Positions 59-15,072 of a stretch of DNA of 28,524 nucleotides are shown one piece after another. How positions within the stretch are numbered: the stretch's first letter is position 1; every line of letters starts with the position of its first letter. Origin of the DNA: Pseudolabrys sp. (GTDB lineage Bacteria > Pseudomonadota > Alphaproteobacteria > Rhizobiales > Xanthobacteraceae); NCBI GenBank assembly GCA_026125925.1, contig JAHCKF010000007.1, positions 1 to 28,524 of the forward strand, read 5' to 3'. The notes below the pieces were generated by a model. That model saw nothing but the letters and a program-made list of their open reading frames with translations, was not told where the DNA came from and made no database searches. The position numbers and the translations under genes were made by a program.

Positions 59-1786
59 TCATTTCTTCTTCAACTGGCTCTGCGGGTTGAGATTGCCGAT
101 GCGGCCGGACTCGCTGCCGGCGCCCGGATCGAGCACGGCGTTGATGAGGGTCGGCTTGCCGGAATCCATGGCGGCGTTGACGGCGCGCTTGAGTTCGTCG
201 GGCGACGTGGCGTTGACGCCGACGCCGCCGAAGGCCTCGATCATCTTGTCGTAGCGCGCGCCCTTGACGAACACGGTGGTCGCCGGATCGTCGCTCGCCT
301 TGTTGACGTCGGTGCCGCGATAGATGCCGTCATTGTTGAAGATGACGATGCAGACCGGGAGGTTGTAACGGCAGATCGTCTCGATCTCCATGCCGCTGAA
401 ACCGAAGGCCGAGTCGCCCTCGACGCACAGCACCGGCTTGCCGGTCTCGACCGCCGCGGCGATGGCATAGCCCATGCCGATGCCCATGATGCCCCAGGTG
501 CCGACGTCGATGCGCTTGCGCGGCTTGTAGACATCGATGATGCCGCGCGCGAGGTCGAGCGTGTTGGCGCCTTCGTTGACCAGCATGGCGTCCGGCCGCT
601 CCTTGACGATGGTGCGCAGCACGCCGAGCGCGCCGTGATAGTCCATCGGCACGTTGTTGTTCATCAGGCGCGGCGCCATCTTGGCGACGTTGTCCTCGCG
701 CTTCTTGGTCACCGCCGAAATCCAGTCGGACGGCGGCGCCGGGAACTTTTCGCCCATGCCCTTGAGCAGGGCCTCGACGCAGGAACCGATGTCGCCGACG
801 ACGGGAGCAACGATCTCGACGTTGGAGTCCATCTCCTTCGGCTCGATGTCGACCTGGATGAACTTCTTCGGCGCTTCGCCCCAGGTCTTGCCCTTGCCGT
901 GCGACAAGAGCCAGTTGAGGCGCGCGCCGATCAGCATGACGACGTCGGAGTCCTTCAGCACCGTCGAGCGCGCCGCGCCCGCGCACTGCGGATGCGTGTC
1001 CGGCAAGAGGCCCTTGGCCATGCTCATAGGCAGGAACGGGATGCCGCTCTTTTCCACCAGCGCCTTCACGGCATCGTCGGCCTGCGCATAGGCCGCGCCC
1101 TTGCCGAGGATGATGAGCGGCTTCTTCGCGCCCTTGAGCACGTCGAGCGCGCGCTTGACCGCATCCGGTGCCGGAAGCTGCGCCGGGGCCGGGTCGATCA
1201 CCTTGACCAGCGACTTGCGGCCCTTTTCCGCGTCGATGACCTGGCCGAATAGCTTGGCCGGCAGGTCGAGATAGACGCCGCCGGGACGACCGGAAACCGC
1301 GGCACGAATGGCACGGGCGATACCAATTCCAATGTCCTCGGCATGCAGCACGCGGTAGGCGGCCTTGCAGAGCGGCTTGGCGATGGCGAGTTGGTCCATC
1401 TCCTCATAATCGCCCTGCTGGAGGTCGACGATCTCGCGCTCGGACGAGCCGGAAATCAGGATCATCGGAAAGCAGTTGGTGGTGGCGTGCGCCAGCGCGG
1501 TGAGGCCGTTGAGGAAGCCCGGCGCCGAGACGGTGACGCAGACGCCCGGCTGCTTGGTCAGGAAGCCGGCGATCGAGGCCGCATAGCCGGCATTCTGCTC
1601 GTGGCGAAACGACAGGACGCGGAGACCTTCGGCCTGCGACATGCGCAGGAAGTCGGTGATCGGGATGCCCGGCACGGCATAGAGCGTCTTGATGCCGTTG
1701 AGCTTGAGCCCGTCAATGATCAGGTTGAAGCCGTCGGTCAGCTCCTGCTCGGTCTCGGCCGCGTTTTTCACCGCTGCTTCAGCCAT
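59..1786 (-). CDS. oxc: Oxalyl-CoA decarboxylase
   Basis: This is a 575-residue thiamine-diphosphate enzyme that converts oxalyl-CoA to formyl-CoA and CO2 in the cytoplasm, the second step of oxalate breakdown. The N-terminal pyrimidine-binding domain carries the activating glutamate in [10 protein letters not shown] (E63). Y127-E128 and the C-terminal SGRIG (S560, R562) match, with a constant +7 offset, the active-site residues I recall for the Oxalobacter enzyme (Y120, E121, S553, R555). The C-terminal PP domain has the diphosphate/Mg motif EGDSAFGF followed by FNNDGIY. Length fits the family (about 568). The ATG is preceded by AAAGGGAG. It lies 73 bp downstream of the gntR gene in the same orientation, so co-transcription is plausible. 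The usual partner, formyl-CoA transferase, is not in the window. Confidence 0.95.
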
Positions 1787-1859
1787 CGTCTACTCCCTTT
1801 CCTTTGCTCGCCAGCCGCCGCTCACCCTGGGCGCGACGCGGGCATGTCCGTTTTTTGGT

Positions 1860-2615
1860 TCAGTCGAGATAATCGGCAAACTTGGCGACGTGATCGGCAA
1901 GGCCCAGTGCGTGATCGCGCACGAGCTGCTCGGCGCGCTTGGTGTCGCGCGCTTCCAGCGCCTCGATGATCGCCATGTGATCCTTGATCGAGCGGTCGGC
2001 ACGATCCTTTTCGCCGATGGTGGTGCGGCGGATCATGCGCATATGCGTGAACAGGTTCGCCGCCAGATCGATCAGCACCTGGTTCTTGCTGAGCCTGATG
2101 ATGGTCTGGTGGAATTCGATGTTGGCGTCGGAATATTCGTCGAGATGCGCGCGCAGTTCGCCGTCGATGAAGGCCGCGAACATCTCGCGCAGGCCTTCGA
2201 TCTCGTCGTCGGTGGCCGCGATGGTGATGAGACGGGCCGCCATGCTTTCCAGGGCCGCCCAGGCGGTGATCATCTCGATCACTTCCTGCTTGGTCTTGCG
2301 CACCACGTAGATGCCGCGGCGCGGCACCGAGCGGACGAAACCCTCGCTCTCGAGCTGGGCCATGGCTTCGCGCACCGGCGTGCGGCTGATGCCGAAGTCC
2401 TGCGCCAGCTTGCGCTCGTCGAGGCGGATCTCATCGCGGCTGTGATAGACGTCCATCGCCACGATGGCGTTTTTGAGCGCCGCGTACGCCTTGTGCTTGA
2501 AGCTCGGCGACTCCGCGATCGGCGGCAAGGTCGGGCGCTGCGCCATTGCTGGTGTGCGCGCCGCACTACGGCTGCGGGAAGAAACGTTGCGGGTACTGAC
2601 GCCTTTGGTGCTCAT
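1860..2615 (-). CDS. GntR/FadR-type (FCD) transcriptional regulator
   Basis: This 251-residue one-component regulator has an N-terminal winged helix-turn-helix (about 38-105, with LAQDFGISRTPVREAMAQLE followed by the wing SVPRRGIYVV) and an all-helical FCD ligand domain (about 112-240). N165/H169, H213 and H235 fit the metal-binding D/N-H-H-H set of FCD proteins, so a carboxylate bound through a metal is the expected effector (family knowledge). It lies between oxc and the tctCBA transporter on the same strand. An inverted repeat 20-36 bp upstream of its start recurs upstream of tctC, suggesting autoregulation and control of the transporter. The first 35 residues are basic and low-complexity, and no clear ribosome-binding site supports this ATG. 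The inner Met at residue 24 is an alternative start. Confidence 0.88.
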   Translation of the reverse strand: MSTKGVSTRNVSSRSRSAARTPAMAQRPTLPPIAESPSFKHKAYAALKNAIVAMDVYHSRDEIRLDERKLAQDFGISRTPVREAMAQLESEGFVRSVPRRGIYVVRKTKQEVIEMITAWAALESMAARLITIAATDDEIEGLREMFAAFIDGELRAHLDEYSDANIEFHQTIIRLSKNQVLIDLAANLFTHMRMIRRTTIGEKDRADRSIKDHMAIIEALEARDTKRAEQLVRDHALGLADHVAKFADYLD

Positions 2616-10594: not shown

Positions 10595-10984
10595 TTACGA
10601 CAGCTTGCCGATTACCTGCTCGATCTTGCCGCGCAGGATCGCCGACGTGAACGGCTTGACCAGGTAGTTGTTGACGCCGGCCTGAGCAGCTTTCACCACC
10701 AATTCGCGGTCGCCGCGGCCGGTCAGCATGATGAACGGCACCTTGCGCGCCACCGGATGACCGCGCACCGCTCGCAGGAAGCCGAGTCCGTCCATTTCCG
10801 GCATGTTGTAATCGGAGATGATCAGGTCCAGCGGCTGCACGGCCGCCGTTTCCATGCCCTGGACGCCGTTTTCCGCCTCCTGGATGTGGCGGAAACCGAT
10901 CTCCTCCAGCGCCATCCGGGTCATCTGCCGGACGCTGTTCTGGTCGTCGACGATGAGGACCTTGATTGCTCCTGCAACTGGCAT
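10595..10984 (-). CDS. cheY: Chemotaxis response regulator CheY
   Basis: This 129-residue stand-alone receiver domain has a complete active site: acidic pair D13-D14 (VLIVDDQ), phosphoacceptor D58 (IISDYNMPEMDG), T88 (FIMLTGRGD) and K110 (YLVKPF). It is phosphorylated by CheA and, in the family, acts on the flagellar switch FliM or as a phosphate sink. It follows cheA by 52 bp, with GGAGT before the ATG. A second receiver is fused to CheS upstream of cheA. Which of the two drives the motor cannot be told from sequence. Confidence 0.93.
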   Translation of the reverse strand: MPVAGAIKVLIVDDQNSVRQMTRMALEEIGFRHIQEAENGVQGMETAAVQPLDLIISDYNMPEMDGLGFLRAVRGHPVARKVPFIMLTGRGDRELVVKAAQAGVNNYLVKPFTSAILRGKIEQVIGKLS

Positions 10985-11036: not shown

Positions 11037-13181
11037 CTAGTTCAAGGCGGGCTGCGCCGCTTTCATGGTTGCGTTGTTGGTGACTGGTGTATGAACCGCC
11101 AGCTCTGACAGCTTTTCGACGTCGAGAATGAAGGCAACGCGTCCGTTGCCGAGGATCGTCGCGGCGGCGATTCCCGGAACCGCGCCGTAGCTTTCCTCAA
11201 TGCTCTTGATCACGACCTGCTGGTGGCCGAGCAATTCGTCGACGACGAGTCCGATGCGGGAACCTTCGCCGGTGTCGGTGATGATGACGACGCGCTCCGA
11301 ATTGTTCCCCGCCGACGAGCCGATGCCGAGCAGATCGCCGAGCATGACGATCGGCACGAACTCGCCCCGCAACTGCAACATGCCGTGGGTGCCGATCAGA
11401 TTCGAAATCTCGCCGCGCGACGGCCGCAAGCACTCGACGATCGCCGACAGCGGCATCACGTAGGTCTGCGTGCCGGTCTTGATCACCATGCCGTCCATGA
11501 CCGCAAGCGTCAGCGGCAGCGCCAACTGAATGGTCATGCCCTGGCCGCGCACCGACTTCAGCGTGATGCGCCCGCCGAGATCCTGGATATTGCTGCGGAC
11601 GACGTCCATGCCGACGCCGCGGCCGGAGATGTCCGAGATGGTCTCCGCGGTGGAGAAGCCCGGCATCATGATCAGGTTGTTGATCTCGTCCTCGCTGAGC
11701 TGCGCGTCCGGACCGACCAGGCCCTTCTCCCGCGCGATCTTCAGCACGCGCTCGGAATTGATGCCGGCGCCGTCGTCCTTGATCTCGATAACGATGCGGC
11801 CGCCGCGGTGTTCGGCGGACAGGCGGATGACGCCTTCTTCCGGCTTGCCGGCGGCAAGGCGGGCCGCCGGCGCTTCGACGCCGTGATCGACCGAATTTCG
11901 GATGATGTGGGTGAGCGGGTCGCCGAGGCGCTCGATGATCGAACGATCGACTTCCGTGGTTTCGCCGTGCGTCTCCAGCCGCACCTTCTTGTGCGTCTTG
12001 GCGGCGACTTCGCGGACCAGACGAGGCATGCGCTGGAACACCGAGCCGACCGGCTGGGCACGCATGGACATGACGCTGTCCTTGAGTTCGCGGGTGTGGT
12101 GCGCGACCTCGTCAAGGATCTGGATCAGCCGCATGCTGGTCGTTTCCGGCAGGTCCTGGACGATCTGGCCGAGCATGGCCTGCGAGATGACGAGTTCGCC
12201 GACCATGTTGACGACGCGGTCGATACGCTCGAGCTCGATGCGGGTCGTCGTCGCGGCCGGCTTGGTGCGGCCGGCGCCGCCGGCGATGGCCGGTTCGGCC
12301 TCGGTTTTCGGCGCGGCGATCGGAGTGGGCTTGGTCTCGACCGGGGCGAGCGGCATTTCCGGCGCCAAGGGCGGGGCGTCGACCACGGGCATAGCCGCGA
12401 CCGGGGCCGGCGTCATGTCCTCGATGGACAGATCGCAATCGCCCGAGACGAATTCGAAGACTTCGTCGACCTGGCCGCGGGCTGCTTCGGTGCGCAGCGT
12501 GGCGGTCCACCACAAGTACGGGACGTCCGTCTCGATGTCGCTCAGCGCCGGCAGGTTTTCGGCGTTCGCCGTGAGTTCGACCTCGCCCAGCTTGCGTAGC
12601 TCGCGCAGGACGTAAAGCGGTTCATTGGCCTTCTTCAGCATTTCCGGCTTCGGCCGGAAGGTGATGTTGTAGATGCGCTGGCCGTCGGCCTGCTGGTCGG
12701 CCGCAATCTCGTCGAGATCGACCGCGACCGGCATAAAGTCGAGGCCATCGAAATCGGCCGGTGCGATCTCGCCATCGTCCCCGCCGCTGCCGCCGCCTTG
12801 CTCGATGATCTGCTCGAGCGCGTTGCGGCACTCGCCGCCGAAGCCCGGCGCGATTTCCTGCCCCGAACGCGACATCTGCACCAGATCGGACAGCACGTCA
12901 CTCGACGACAGCAACACGTCGAGATTGTCCGAGGTCGCCGTAAGGCTGCCGTTACGCAGGCCGTCCAGCACTGTCTCGAAGACATGGGCGAATTCGACGA
13001 GCTGTTCGAAGCCGAAGATGCCGGCGCCGCCCTTCACCGAATGGACGCCGCGGAACACGGCATTGACAGTTTCGTCATTGCCTTCGCCCGATCGGATATC
13101 GGTCAGGCCGATCTCGATCTGCTGCATCGCTTCGTCGCATTCGTCGAAGAATGTCTTCTTCAGATCGTCCAAGCTTGCCAT
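11037..13181 (-). CDS. cheA: Chemotaxis histidine kinase CheA
   Basis: This 714-residue class II histidine kinase has an N-terminal Hpt/P1 domain (about 1-110, phosphorylated H47 in RGVHSVKGGAGIFG) and a P2-like regulator-docking module (about 145-235, YNITFRPKPEMLKKANEPL). A Pro/Ala-rich linker (about 238-300) follows, then a dimerisation helix pair (IDRVVNMVGELVISQAML). The ATPase carries the N-box DPLTHIIRNSVDHGVE, the G1-like IKDDGAGI and the G2 region SGRGVGMDVV. A CheW-like regulatory domain completes it (about 560-705). It takes input from MCP-CheW arrays and phosphorylates CheY and CheB. It starts 42 bp after the CheS-CheY fusion. In related rhizobial operons CheS is reported to bind CheA and speed CheY1-P dephosphorylation (from memory). 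Confidence 0.96.
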   Translation of the reverse strand: MASLDDLKKTFFDECDEAMQQIEIGLTDIRSGEGNDETVNAVFRGVHSVKGGAGIFGFEQLVEFAHVFETVLDGLRNGSLTATSDNLDVLLSSSDVLSDLVQMSRSGQEIAPGFGGECRNALEQIIEQGGGSGGDDGEIAPADFDGLDFMPVAVDLDEIAADQQADGQRIYNITFRPKPEMLKKANEPLYVLRELRKLGEVELTANAENLPALSDIETDVPYLWWTATLRTEAARGQVDEVFEFVSGDCDLSIEDMTPAPVAAMPVVDAPPLAPEMPLAPVETKPTPIAAPKTEAEPAIAGGAGRTKPAATTTRIELERIDRVVNMVGELVISQAMLGQIVQDLPETTSMRLIQILDEVAHHTRELKDSVMSMRAQPVGSVFQRMPRLVREVAAKTHKKVRLETHGETTEVDRSIIERLGDPLTHIIRNSVDHGVEAPAARLAAGKPEEGVIRLSAEHRGGRIVIEIKDDGAGINSERVLKIAREKGLVGPDAQLSEDEINNLIMMPGFSTAETISDISGRGVGMDVVRSNIQDLGGRITLKSVRGQGMTIQLALPLTLAVMDGMVIKTGTQTYVMPLSAIVECLRPSRGEISNLIGTHGMLQLRGEFVPIVMLGDLLGIGSSAGNNSERVVIITDTGEGSRIGLVVDELLGHQQVVIKSIEESYGAVPGIAAATILGNGRVAFILDVEKLSELAVHTPVTNNATMKAAQPALN

Positions 13182-13223: not shown

Positions 13224-13991
13224 TTAGGGGGCGACCTTGCGCACGGTGGCCACCAGCCGCTCCGGATCGAACGGCTTGACCATCCATCCGGTCGCTCCGG
13301 CTTCGCGCGCCTGGCTTTTCTTGTCGCCGTCGCTTTCGGTGGTGAGCACCAGGATCGGCTTCGACTTGTAGGTCGGGTCGCGCCGCAGATTGCGGATCAC
13401 TTCGTATCCATCCATGCGCGGCATGTTGATGTCGGTAATAATGACGTCGACTTCCGTCTGCTCCCTGGCCAGCACGTCGAGGCCGTCCTGGCCGTCCACG
13501 GCCTGGATAACGTCGAAGCCTGCCTCGGCGAGAGTGAGCATCAGCATGTCGCGAATCGTCTTCGAGTCGTCGATCGTCAGAATGCGCTTGCTCATGACTT
13601 TCTCGCTGATTGGAGGGGCTTCGACGTCAGCCACCAGCGCCGCCTCGTCCGGCGCCACGTCGAGCGGTTCGCCAGTGGGAGCTTGCCCTGCAGAAACGTC
13701 TTCGCGAATCTGGCGCTGATCGAGATGGGCCTGCCAGTCGAGGCCGAAATCTTCGAAGGTGGCGACGAACGCCGCGGACGGGTTCCTGATCTTGATGCTG
13801 TCGCCGGCACGCAGCGCCGCGAGCACGATCTGTGTACACGGCAAAGTCAGCGTCTCGACTTCGGAGGCGTCGAGCGCTAGCGGCGCATCGCCGCTGACGC
13901 GCTGGCGCATCAGTTCGAGAAAGGACTCGGCCGCTGCCTGATCCAGCATCGGCGGCAGCATCACCACGTTCTGTTCGGCGTTGCCCATCAT
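13224..13991 (-). CDS. STAS-domain (CheS-like) protein fused to CheY receiver
   Basis: This is a single 255-residue open frame with two parts. Residues about 8-90 form a STAS-like domain (MLPPMLDQAAAESFLELM, then LALDASEVETLTLPCTQIVL and IRNPSAAFVATFEDFGL). After an acidic, Pro/Ala-rich linker (about 91-131), residues 133-255 form a full CheY, with the acidic pair at D141-D142, phosphoacceptor D187 (IITDINMPRMDGY), TT at 217-218 and K239. In rhizobial che operons I know these as separate genes, cheS then cheY1, directly before cheA as here. The start at 13991 is favoured because AGGAA lies 7 bases upstream, overlapping the cheB stop; an earlier ATG would overlap cheB. An internal ATG at 13595 with a weak GAGAAAG could yield a free 123-residue CheY. 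The open frame argues for a real fusion. Confidence 0.88.
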   Translation of the reverse strand: MMGNAEQNVVMLPPMLDQAAAESFLELMRQRVSGDAPLALDASEVETLTLPCTQIVLAALRAGDSIKIRNPSAAFVATFEDFGLDWQAHLDQRQIREDVSAGQAPTGEPLDVAPDEAALVADVEAPPISEKVMSKRILTIDDSKTIRDMLMLTLAEAGFDVIQAVDGQDGLDVLAREQTEVDVIITDINMPRMDGYEVIRNLRRDPTYKSKPILVLTTESDGDKKSQAREAGATGWMVKPFDPERLVATVRKVAP

Positions 13992-14001
13992 CGCATCATT
14001 C

Positions 14002-15072
14002 CTATGCTCGTGCCGCAGCTTTGGCGGATGCGGCCGTACCGTCGCAGGCATCGAGGATCGCCTCGGCCATATGCGAGAGAGACACCTGACGCATCACCGC
14101 GCCACGTTCGAAGGCGACTCGCGGCATGCCGTAAATGAGAGCGGAAGCTTCGTCCTGGCCGAGCGTGTAGGCGCCCGCCTGGCGCATCGCCAGCAGGCCC
14201 TCGGCGCCATCCTTGCCCATGCCGGTGAGGATCGAACCGACGGCCGCCTTCCCCGCCACCTTCGCCACCGAGCGGAACAGAACATCGACCGAGGGCCGGT
14301 GGCCCGAGACGGGCGCGGAGTCGCTCAAAGTGCAGCGATACTCATTGCCCGCGCGCACCACCTCGAGATGGTGGGAGCCCGGGGCGATATAGACATGGCC
14401 GGCTTCGATGGTCTCATTGTGCATCGCCTCGGACACCTTCATCGGGCATTCCCGGTTGAGGCGCTCGGCGAACGCCGCCGTGAACCGCGGCGGCATGTGC
14501 TGAGTAATGACGATCGGCGGGCACTCCGCCGGAAGCTGCATCAACACCTTCTTGAGCGCTTCGACGCCACCGGTGGAGGCACCAATGGCGACGAGGCGTT
14601 CGCCCGCGCCTGCGCTGTAGGCCCGGCGCGGCTTTGTCGGCGCGAGCGCTGCGGAGCCGCGGCCGACACGTGCCCGGGCCGCCTGCTTCACTTTGGCCTG
14701 TAATTCGCCGGCAATTTCTGCGAGACCCTGCGCGACGTCCTTCACCGGCTTGGCAACGAAGTCCACGGCGCCGATCTCGAGCGCTTCCAGCGTCGTTTCC
14801 GCGCCCGCTTGAGTCAGGGTCGAGACCATGATGACTGGCATTGGCCGCAGCGTCATGATCTTACGCAGGAAAGTGACGCCGTCCATGTTCGGCATCTCGA
14901 CGTCGAGCGTGACAACATCGGGATTGAGCGCCTTGATGCGGTCGCGTGCGATCAAGGGATCGCCGGCGGTGCCGACGACTTCGATTTCCGGATCCTGCGA
15001 CAGCAGCATCTGCAACAACTGCCGGATCACGGCGGAGTCGTCGACGATAAGAACCCTGACCTTCTTGTCCAT
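14002..15072 (-). CDS. cheB: Chemotaxis methylesterase/deamidase CheB
   Basis: This 356-residue protein has an N-terminal receiver domain (acidic pair D11-D12, phosphoacceptor D57 in VVTLDVEMP, lysine in FVAKPV). A flexible Ala/Arg-rich linker (about 125-155) leads to a C-terminal methylesterase domain with the catalytic triad S166 (GASTGG), H192 (TQHMPP) and D288 (GMGKDGAEG). It removes methyl groups from MCP glutamates when phosphorylated by CheA, opposing CheR. It sits 14 bp after cheD, and its stop overlaps the ribosome-binding site of the CheS-CheY gene, implying coupled translation. Length is typical. Confidence 0.96.
   Translation of the reverse strand: MDKKVRVLIVDDSAVIRQLLQMLLSQDPEIEVVGTAGDPLIARDRIKALNPDVVTLDVEMPNMDGVTFLRKIMTLRPMPVIMVSTLTQAGAETTLEALEIGAVDFVAKPVKDVAQGLAEIAGELQAKVKQAARARVGRGSAALAPTKPRRAYSAGAGERLVAIGASTGGVEALKKVLMQLPAECPPIVITQHMPPRFTAAFAERLNRECPMKVSEAMHNETIEAGHVYIAPGSHHLEVVRAGNEYRCTLSDSAPVSGHRPSVDVLFRSVAKVAGKAAVGSILTGMGKDGAEGLLAMRQAGAYTLGQDEASALIYGMPRVAFERGAVMRQVSLSHMAEAILDACDGTAASAKAAARA

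Follow-up and report, generated by a model that had tools for sequence, protein, structure and literature searches.

A CheS-type STAS domain fused to a CheY1-type receiver in the chemotaxis operon of Pseudolabrys, and the conserved start codon inside the fusion

The rhizobial phosphate sink, made up of the kinase CheA, the response regulators CheY1 and CheY2, and the STAS-domain protein CheS, is a model of how one kinase with two regulators can give a sharp threshold. In the main chemotaxis system of Sinorhizobium meliloti, called F7 in the published work, CheY1 acts as a sink for CheY2~P via CheA; the affinity of CheY1 for CheA/CheS is approximately 100-fold that for CheA, and the Hill coefficient measured in vitro rises from 3.43 to 7.61 with CheS. 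CheS and CheY1 are two proteins in S. meliloti and Agrobacterium, whereas in the stretch of Pseudolabrys sp. DNA analyzed here (the window; 28,524 nucleotides) the corresponding sequences lie in one open reading frame with a long acidic linker between them. This locus raises the questions of whether the fusion is real, how far it extends among related bacteria, and whether the fused gene yields only a CheY1 that is permanently attached to its CheS-type partner or a free CheY1 as well.

The fused gene, its domains and its neighbors

A STAS domain and a CheY receiver in a single frame directly before cheA, as proposed in the initial annotation, were confirmed: the frame encodes 255 residues and carries both Pfam domains (Table 1). 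The STAS_2 match, at 32.5 bits, is only slightly above the curated cut-off of 29.2, and Response_reg spans residues 137–250. An AlphaFold2 model based on a 26-row alignment (mean pLDDT 77.9) contains two folded domains, with pLDDT below 50 at residues 1–6 and across the linker; the flexible acidic linker of about 40 residues described earlier is indeed both disordered and acidic.

Table 1. Features of the fusion gene and of adjacent che genes in the window
Feature	Position	Strand	Basis
cheS-cheY1 fusion gene	13224..13991	minus	255 codons + stop; 41 database homologues of similar length
STAS (CheS-type) domain	13737..13949	minus	residues 15–85; Pfam STAS_2 E 1e-7; folded in model
Disordered acidic linker	13596..13712	minus	residues 94–132 (~39 residues); pLDDT <50
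CheY1-type receiver	13227..13595	minus	residues 133–255; Pfam Response_reg E 7e-26
ATG inside the fusion (codon 133), candidate start codon for free CheY1	13593..13595	minus	conservation in fused genes
GAGAAAG, weak Shine-Dalgarno-like stretch 5' of the internal ATG	13598..13604	minus	energy ~−3.6
cheA, proposed docking partner	11037..13181	minus	Hpt, H-kinase_dim, HATPase_c and CheW domains; 42% identity to S. meliloti CheA
cheY2, separate output regulator	10595..10984	minus	52% identity to S. meliloti CheY2
cheB, upstream neighbor	14002..15072	minus	Pfam CheB_methylest + Response_reg

The fusion gene sits between cheB and cheA in a minus-strand run with the order mcp, mcp, cheW, mcp, cheR, cheD, cheB, STAS-receiver, cheA, cheY2, a gene for a 147-aa protein and a DUF2336 gene, in which cheR and two mcp genes (21195–19417, 18521–16701) were named from their translations rather than from the family scan. 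The components of the S. meliloti/Agrobacterium sink recur here, as does the placement of the STAS coding sequence immediately ahead of cheY1 and cheA; in contrast, cheD, cheB and cheR precede the fusion in the window but follow cheA in S. meliloti.

The fused receiver shares 57% identity with S. meliloti CheY1 and 32% with CheY2, while the free receiver (10984–10595) shares 52% with CheY2 and 42% with CheY1; these comparisons show, at the level of sequence, orthology of the fused receiver to CheY1 and of the free receiver to CheY2. The best PDB match of the free receiver is an entry named CheY2 (1p6q), which is presumably from S. meliloti. By a count by eye on its alignment with S. meliloti CheY1, the fused receiver has five (S, K, R, W, V) of the eight CheY1 surface residues published for A. 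fabrum (S86, A88, K91, R95, W102, V104, A115, and R118). The STAS half is similar to CheS, as shown by 33% identity over 86 columns to the S. meliloti STAS protein (E 4e-9), although the match is a distant one, comes from a two-sequence comparison, and involves a protein that is itself one of the 12 rows of our STAS profile A3. Because this domain stands in one frame with a receiver in all 36 distinct fused genes, it is best described as a CheS-type domain and not as a stand-alone CheS. With these qualifications, the CheS-type and CheY1-type identities assigned initially hold. Gene order, length and the nearby fliF suggest that the 97-aa S. meliloti STAS protein is the published CheS and that the main che operon of S. 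meliloti is on the record labelled pSymB. That record (CP090106.1; loci L001/L125) is 3.7 Mb long, with che genes and then fliF, and its pSymB label looks doubtful by the known replicon sizes.

In the 11 named genomes with a fused gene, the next best receiver scored at most 85.7 bits with the fused profile, so that no second CheY1 gene is seen in them. Each of these genomes (G001–G011) has a second CheA, and G002 has three; the second frame is approximately 860–910 aa long, and since receiver matches fall in frames of this length the second CheA seems to carry a receiver. G003, G006, and G007 each have one shorter CheA frame (492–593 aa).

Two further genes complete the run. The 147-aa protein (window 10590–10147, minus strand), encoded between cheY2 and the DUF2336 gene, has an invariant LQ-x-F-D-R-x-x-Q-E-F stretch, with D67 and Q71 invariant in 8/8 rows. 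Its LQ-x-x-D-x-x-x-Q pattern is also present in S. meliloti CheT, for which a DXXXQ phosphatase motif has been described. Assignment as CheT was rejected, the likeness being confined to the motif (BLASTP E 12; hhalign probability 1.8%), and homology to CheZ was likewise not seen in sequence or fold; the PDB folds matched by a weak model (mean pLDDT 64.4) were generic, with none at E 0.001. Judged by its motif, the protein could be a CheY phosphatase. The DUF2336 protein (window 10104–9028, minus strand), which ends the run, matches NCBI SpbR below threshold (92.9 bits; cut-off 400).

Distribution of the fusion and its origin from a split pair

A database search with residues 1–132 returned 41 proteins, all of 241–264 aa, and both Pfam domains are present in 40 of them (the exception, P0036, has Response_reg only). 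Of the 12 loci found when named genomes were scanned, 11 are fused and one (L016) has no receiver beside the STAS. Frequency was surveyed, as the initial annotation had suggested, in 391 genomes from the family of Pseudolabrys sp. Root1462 (G002) with the STAS profile at E 1e-10; a strong STAS match was found in 43 genomes, 34 with frames of at least 246 aa and nine with frames of 115–153 aa (an earlier draw at E 0.001 had matched 46 of 296 genomes). All 34 long frames were examined and hold both domains in one frame, so that 34 of the 43 matching genomes are fused; two of the nine short frames were examined, and both are split. Within the genus, 18 of 43 genomes have a STAS match. A missing match may reflect an incomplete genome or a more distant STAS. 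In total, 36 distinct fused genes, including that of the window, were examined at the DNA level.

Two outcomes that had been named as telling against a true fusion, an error at the junction and near relatives with split genes throughout, did not materialize: all 18 matching genus genomes are fused, and the occurrence of the same fusion in independent genomes means that the junction is not an artefact, a chance event or a base error. That sequencing or assembly joined two separate genes by mistake is virtually impossible, given the same fusion in 34 family-sample genomes and 41 database protein clusters. No description of a CheS-CheY1 fusion was found in the literature searched, which included the available portions of PMC12654446, PMC4214558, PMC8225110, PMC8429497, and PMC13390405.

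Beyond the family, STAS matches were found in 79 of 397 genomes sampled from the order, 44 of 385 from the class and 67 of 299 from the phylum. The 58 loci obtained from the order and class searches comprise one fused gene (that of G002 itself), 52 split pairs and five loci without a receiver beside the STAS; one further long frame, G593 (L107), is split, and the phylum search added no locus beyond those already classified. The classified loci leave out the long frames of G495, G371, G424, G435, G484, G505, and G596 from the order, G743, G773, and G686 from the class, and G1290, G1253, G1208, and G1280 from the phylum, and short-frame matches at these three ranks were classified where they were among the loci returned; a rare independent fusion outside the Pseudolabrys-related lineage may exist. 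A match in Caballeronia (H23) was rejected as a fusion, as a free 121-aa receiver there follows a different frame in which no STAS was seen by eye.

A tree built by a quick method from 211 columns, with 62 split pairs and 33 fused genes, places all of the fused genes in one clade (SH-aLRT 99), and the distribution of fused and split forms requires one change of state; a treekit warning of long branches concerned split rows, and no row that it named is fused. The fusion has a single origin in this tree. In 59 of the 62 split pairs, the first position of the receiver falls within −23 to +31 nt of where the STAS frame ends, including 24 in which the receiver starts at −1 (ATGA-type overlap), and the codon at this first position is ATG in 53/62 and GTG in 4/62. 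In S. meliloti, the stop codon of the 97-aa STAS gene is 3 nt before the CheY1 ATG and in the same frame. A fusion of rhizobial-type cheS and cheY1 would have been fixed once, in the ancestor of the Pseudolabrys-related lineage.

Three observations deserve separate mention. Genome G209 has two fused genes (L030 and L106), the second with the longest linker seen, 104 residues. Two metagenome-assembled genomes titled Rhizobium sp. Q54 (L009, L011) cluster with Pseudolabrys-type sequences in the tree, and their titles may be wrong. At L129 the fused gene lies inside a 736-aa open frame (84–2292, plus strand), the start of which looks like an out-of-frame reading of the preceding gene and is therefore probably not coding.

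The linker varies widely among the 33 fused genes, from 24 to 104 residues, and is acidic overall (23% Asp+Glu, 2% Lys+Arg). In ten close pairs, dN is 0.29–0.39 in the linker, 0.01–0.02 in the receiver and 0.02–0.21 in the STAS domain. By these measures the linker behaves as a spacer.

Conservation of the internal start codon

The position of codon 133, the first of the receiver, is occupied by ATG in 33 of the 36 distinct fused genes (counting L043, where the ATG is one residue further on) and by GTG in one, and by no start codon in two (L105 and L130); all 41 database proteins have Met at the receiver junction. Across the 33-row fused subtree, this position requires 1 parsimony change, compared with 13 for the residue before it and 11 for the residue after it, and the 16 linker positions preceding it require a mean of 17.6. 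Among 13 control receivers, taken from different proteins in genomes of the same kind, nine were judged internal and none of these has Met at that position; the four left out (L113, L120, L122, and L123) have a receiver that seems to be at a true N-terminus, with Met in three. The comparison of sequences shows the internal start position to be under strong constraint; no other position of the junction is as conserved, which points to free CheY1 as a second product.

The ribosome signal at this position is less clear. The internal start has a mean anti-Shine-Dalgarno energy of −3.78. This is lower than the means for 1260 linker positions (−2.08) and for 250 other internal Met codons (−0.93), but the starts of 56 split cheY genes average −6.17. 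A selected Shine-Dalgarno sequence is not supported, because a codon-shuffle null was not beaten (49/300 shuffles were as low) and the amino-acid sequence alone thus accounts for the signal. In a group of 13 genes the start is preceded by Ser-Glu or Gly-Glu, and this Glu is encoded by GAG in 13/13, vs. 15/53 Glu codons elsewhere in their linkers; one codon is kept at 0/5 of the other invariant Glu columns and at 4/34 two-fold columns. Since the rows share ancestry, the preference is given without a probability. The initial annotation had called the internal start at 13595 weak, which is true of its ribosome signal, weaker than that of true cheY starts, but not of its position, which is strongly conserved.

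The strongest competing explanation is that the 255-residue fusion is the only product, a tethered sink with CheS and CheY1 fixed at 1:1, and that the Met is kept for structural reasons at the edge of the first strand. The weakness of the ribosome signal, which is within the range of codon shuffling, is consistent with this, as is the finding that, of the 59 receiver positions after the junction Met, 19 match it in conservation. However, the flanking residues vary freely, and the internal control receivers dispense with Met at this position. An N-terminal Met followed by Ser, Ala or Thr is removed from the free protein, and one of these three residues follows the junction Met in 27/33 cases, so that the fold probably does not depend on the Met; moreover, what the one gene with GTG has retained is a start codon, without the Met side chain. 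We consider a single product unlikely. The earlier proposal that the fusion would fix a 1:1 ratio fares correspondingly poorly, as the conserved internal start points to a second, free CheY1 and makes a strict 1:1 ratio improbable. Such a ratio would also be odd given the levels measured in S. meliloti, 1.5, 20, and 20 as quoted in a published legend (taken here as CheA, CheY1, and CheY2, respectively), if CheS acts at CheA.

A proposed leashed and free phosphate sink

The reading that we favor, with somewhat better than even confidence, is that one gene makes both a CheA-tethered sink and free CheY1. By analogy with published CheS work, the CheS half would dock on CheA and hold the CheY1 receiver alongside on a disordered leash. 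The tethered CheY1 would then be a local sink for phosphate, drawn from CheA~P and, by back-transfer through CheA, from CheY2~P; a tethered sink had been suggested from the outset, and is plausible. The old cheY1 start codon would still be used within the fusion gene and give free CheY1 from the same message, as the conservation of that codon suggests. If the S. meliloti levels are valid here, CheA can accommodate only a minority of the sink molecules, and a free form would make sense. Several points count against this explanation: two fused genes have no start codon at the junction, the ribosome signal there is weak, the match of the STAS half to CheS is distant, and in A. fabrum loss of CheS is reported to have altered the CheA-CheY interaction only slightly.

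The other alternative concerns function, namely that the STAS half is an anti-sigma antagonist-type partner switch or another localizer and that the receiver steers expression or a non-flagellar output instead of serving as a sink. A review speculates that CheS may act on sigma factors, as most small STAS proteins do, and no flagellar gene was found among the families identified in the window frames scanned, but the STAS-cheY1-cheA order matches that of S. meliloti and the receiver is orthologous to CheY1. In addition, when the STAS half is aligned, weakly (E 0.038), with a Stage II sporulation STAS protein, its matching stretch lacks the Ser-Ser-Ala-Gly of that protein, which we take to be its phosphoserine site. 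A partner switch of this kind seems to us quite improbable, more so than a single product.

There are precedents for the two-product arrangement that is preferred here. Escherichia coli makes a short CheA from an internal start. HrcQ/SctQ is likewise listed among genes that give a long and a short protein. The logic is the one proposed for the fusion, in which a conserved internal start would yield the C-terminal part as a separate protein too. Neither HrcQ/SctQ nor short CheA is homologous to the fusion, and the short product is here a prediction from sequence.

The natural fusion is evolutionary evidence that CheS and CheY1 act as a unit at CheA. One cistron would supply two forms of the sink, leashed and free, in a ratio set by translation, and this could tune the sharpness of the chemotactic threshold, a proposal to which we give even chances. 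If the second product is real, the locus would be a clear case of a gene fusion that has kept the separate protein.
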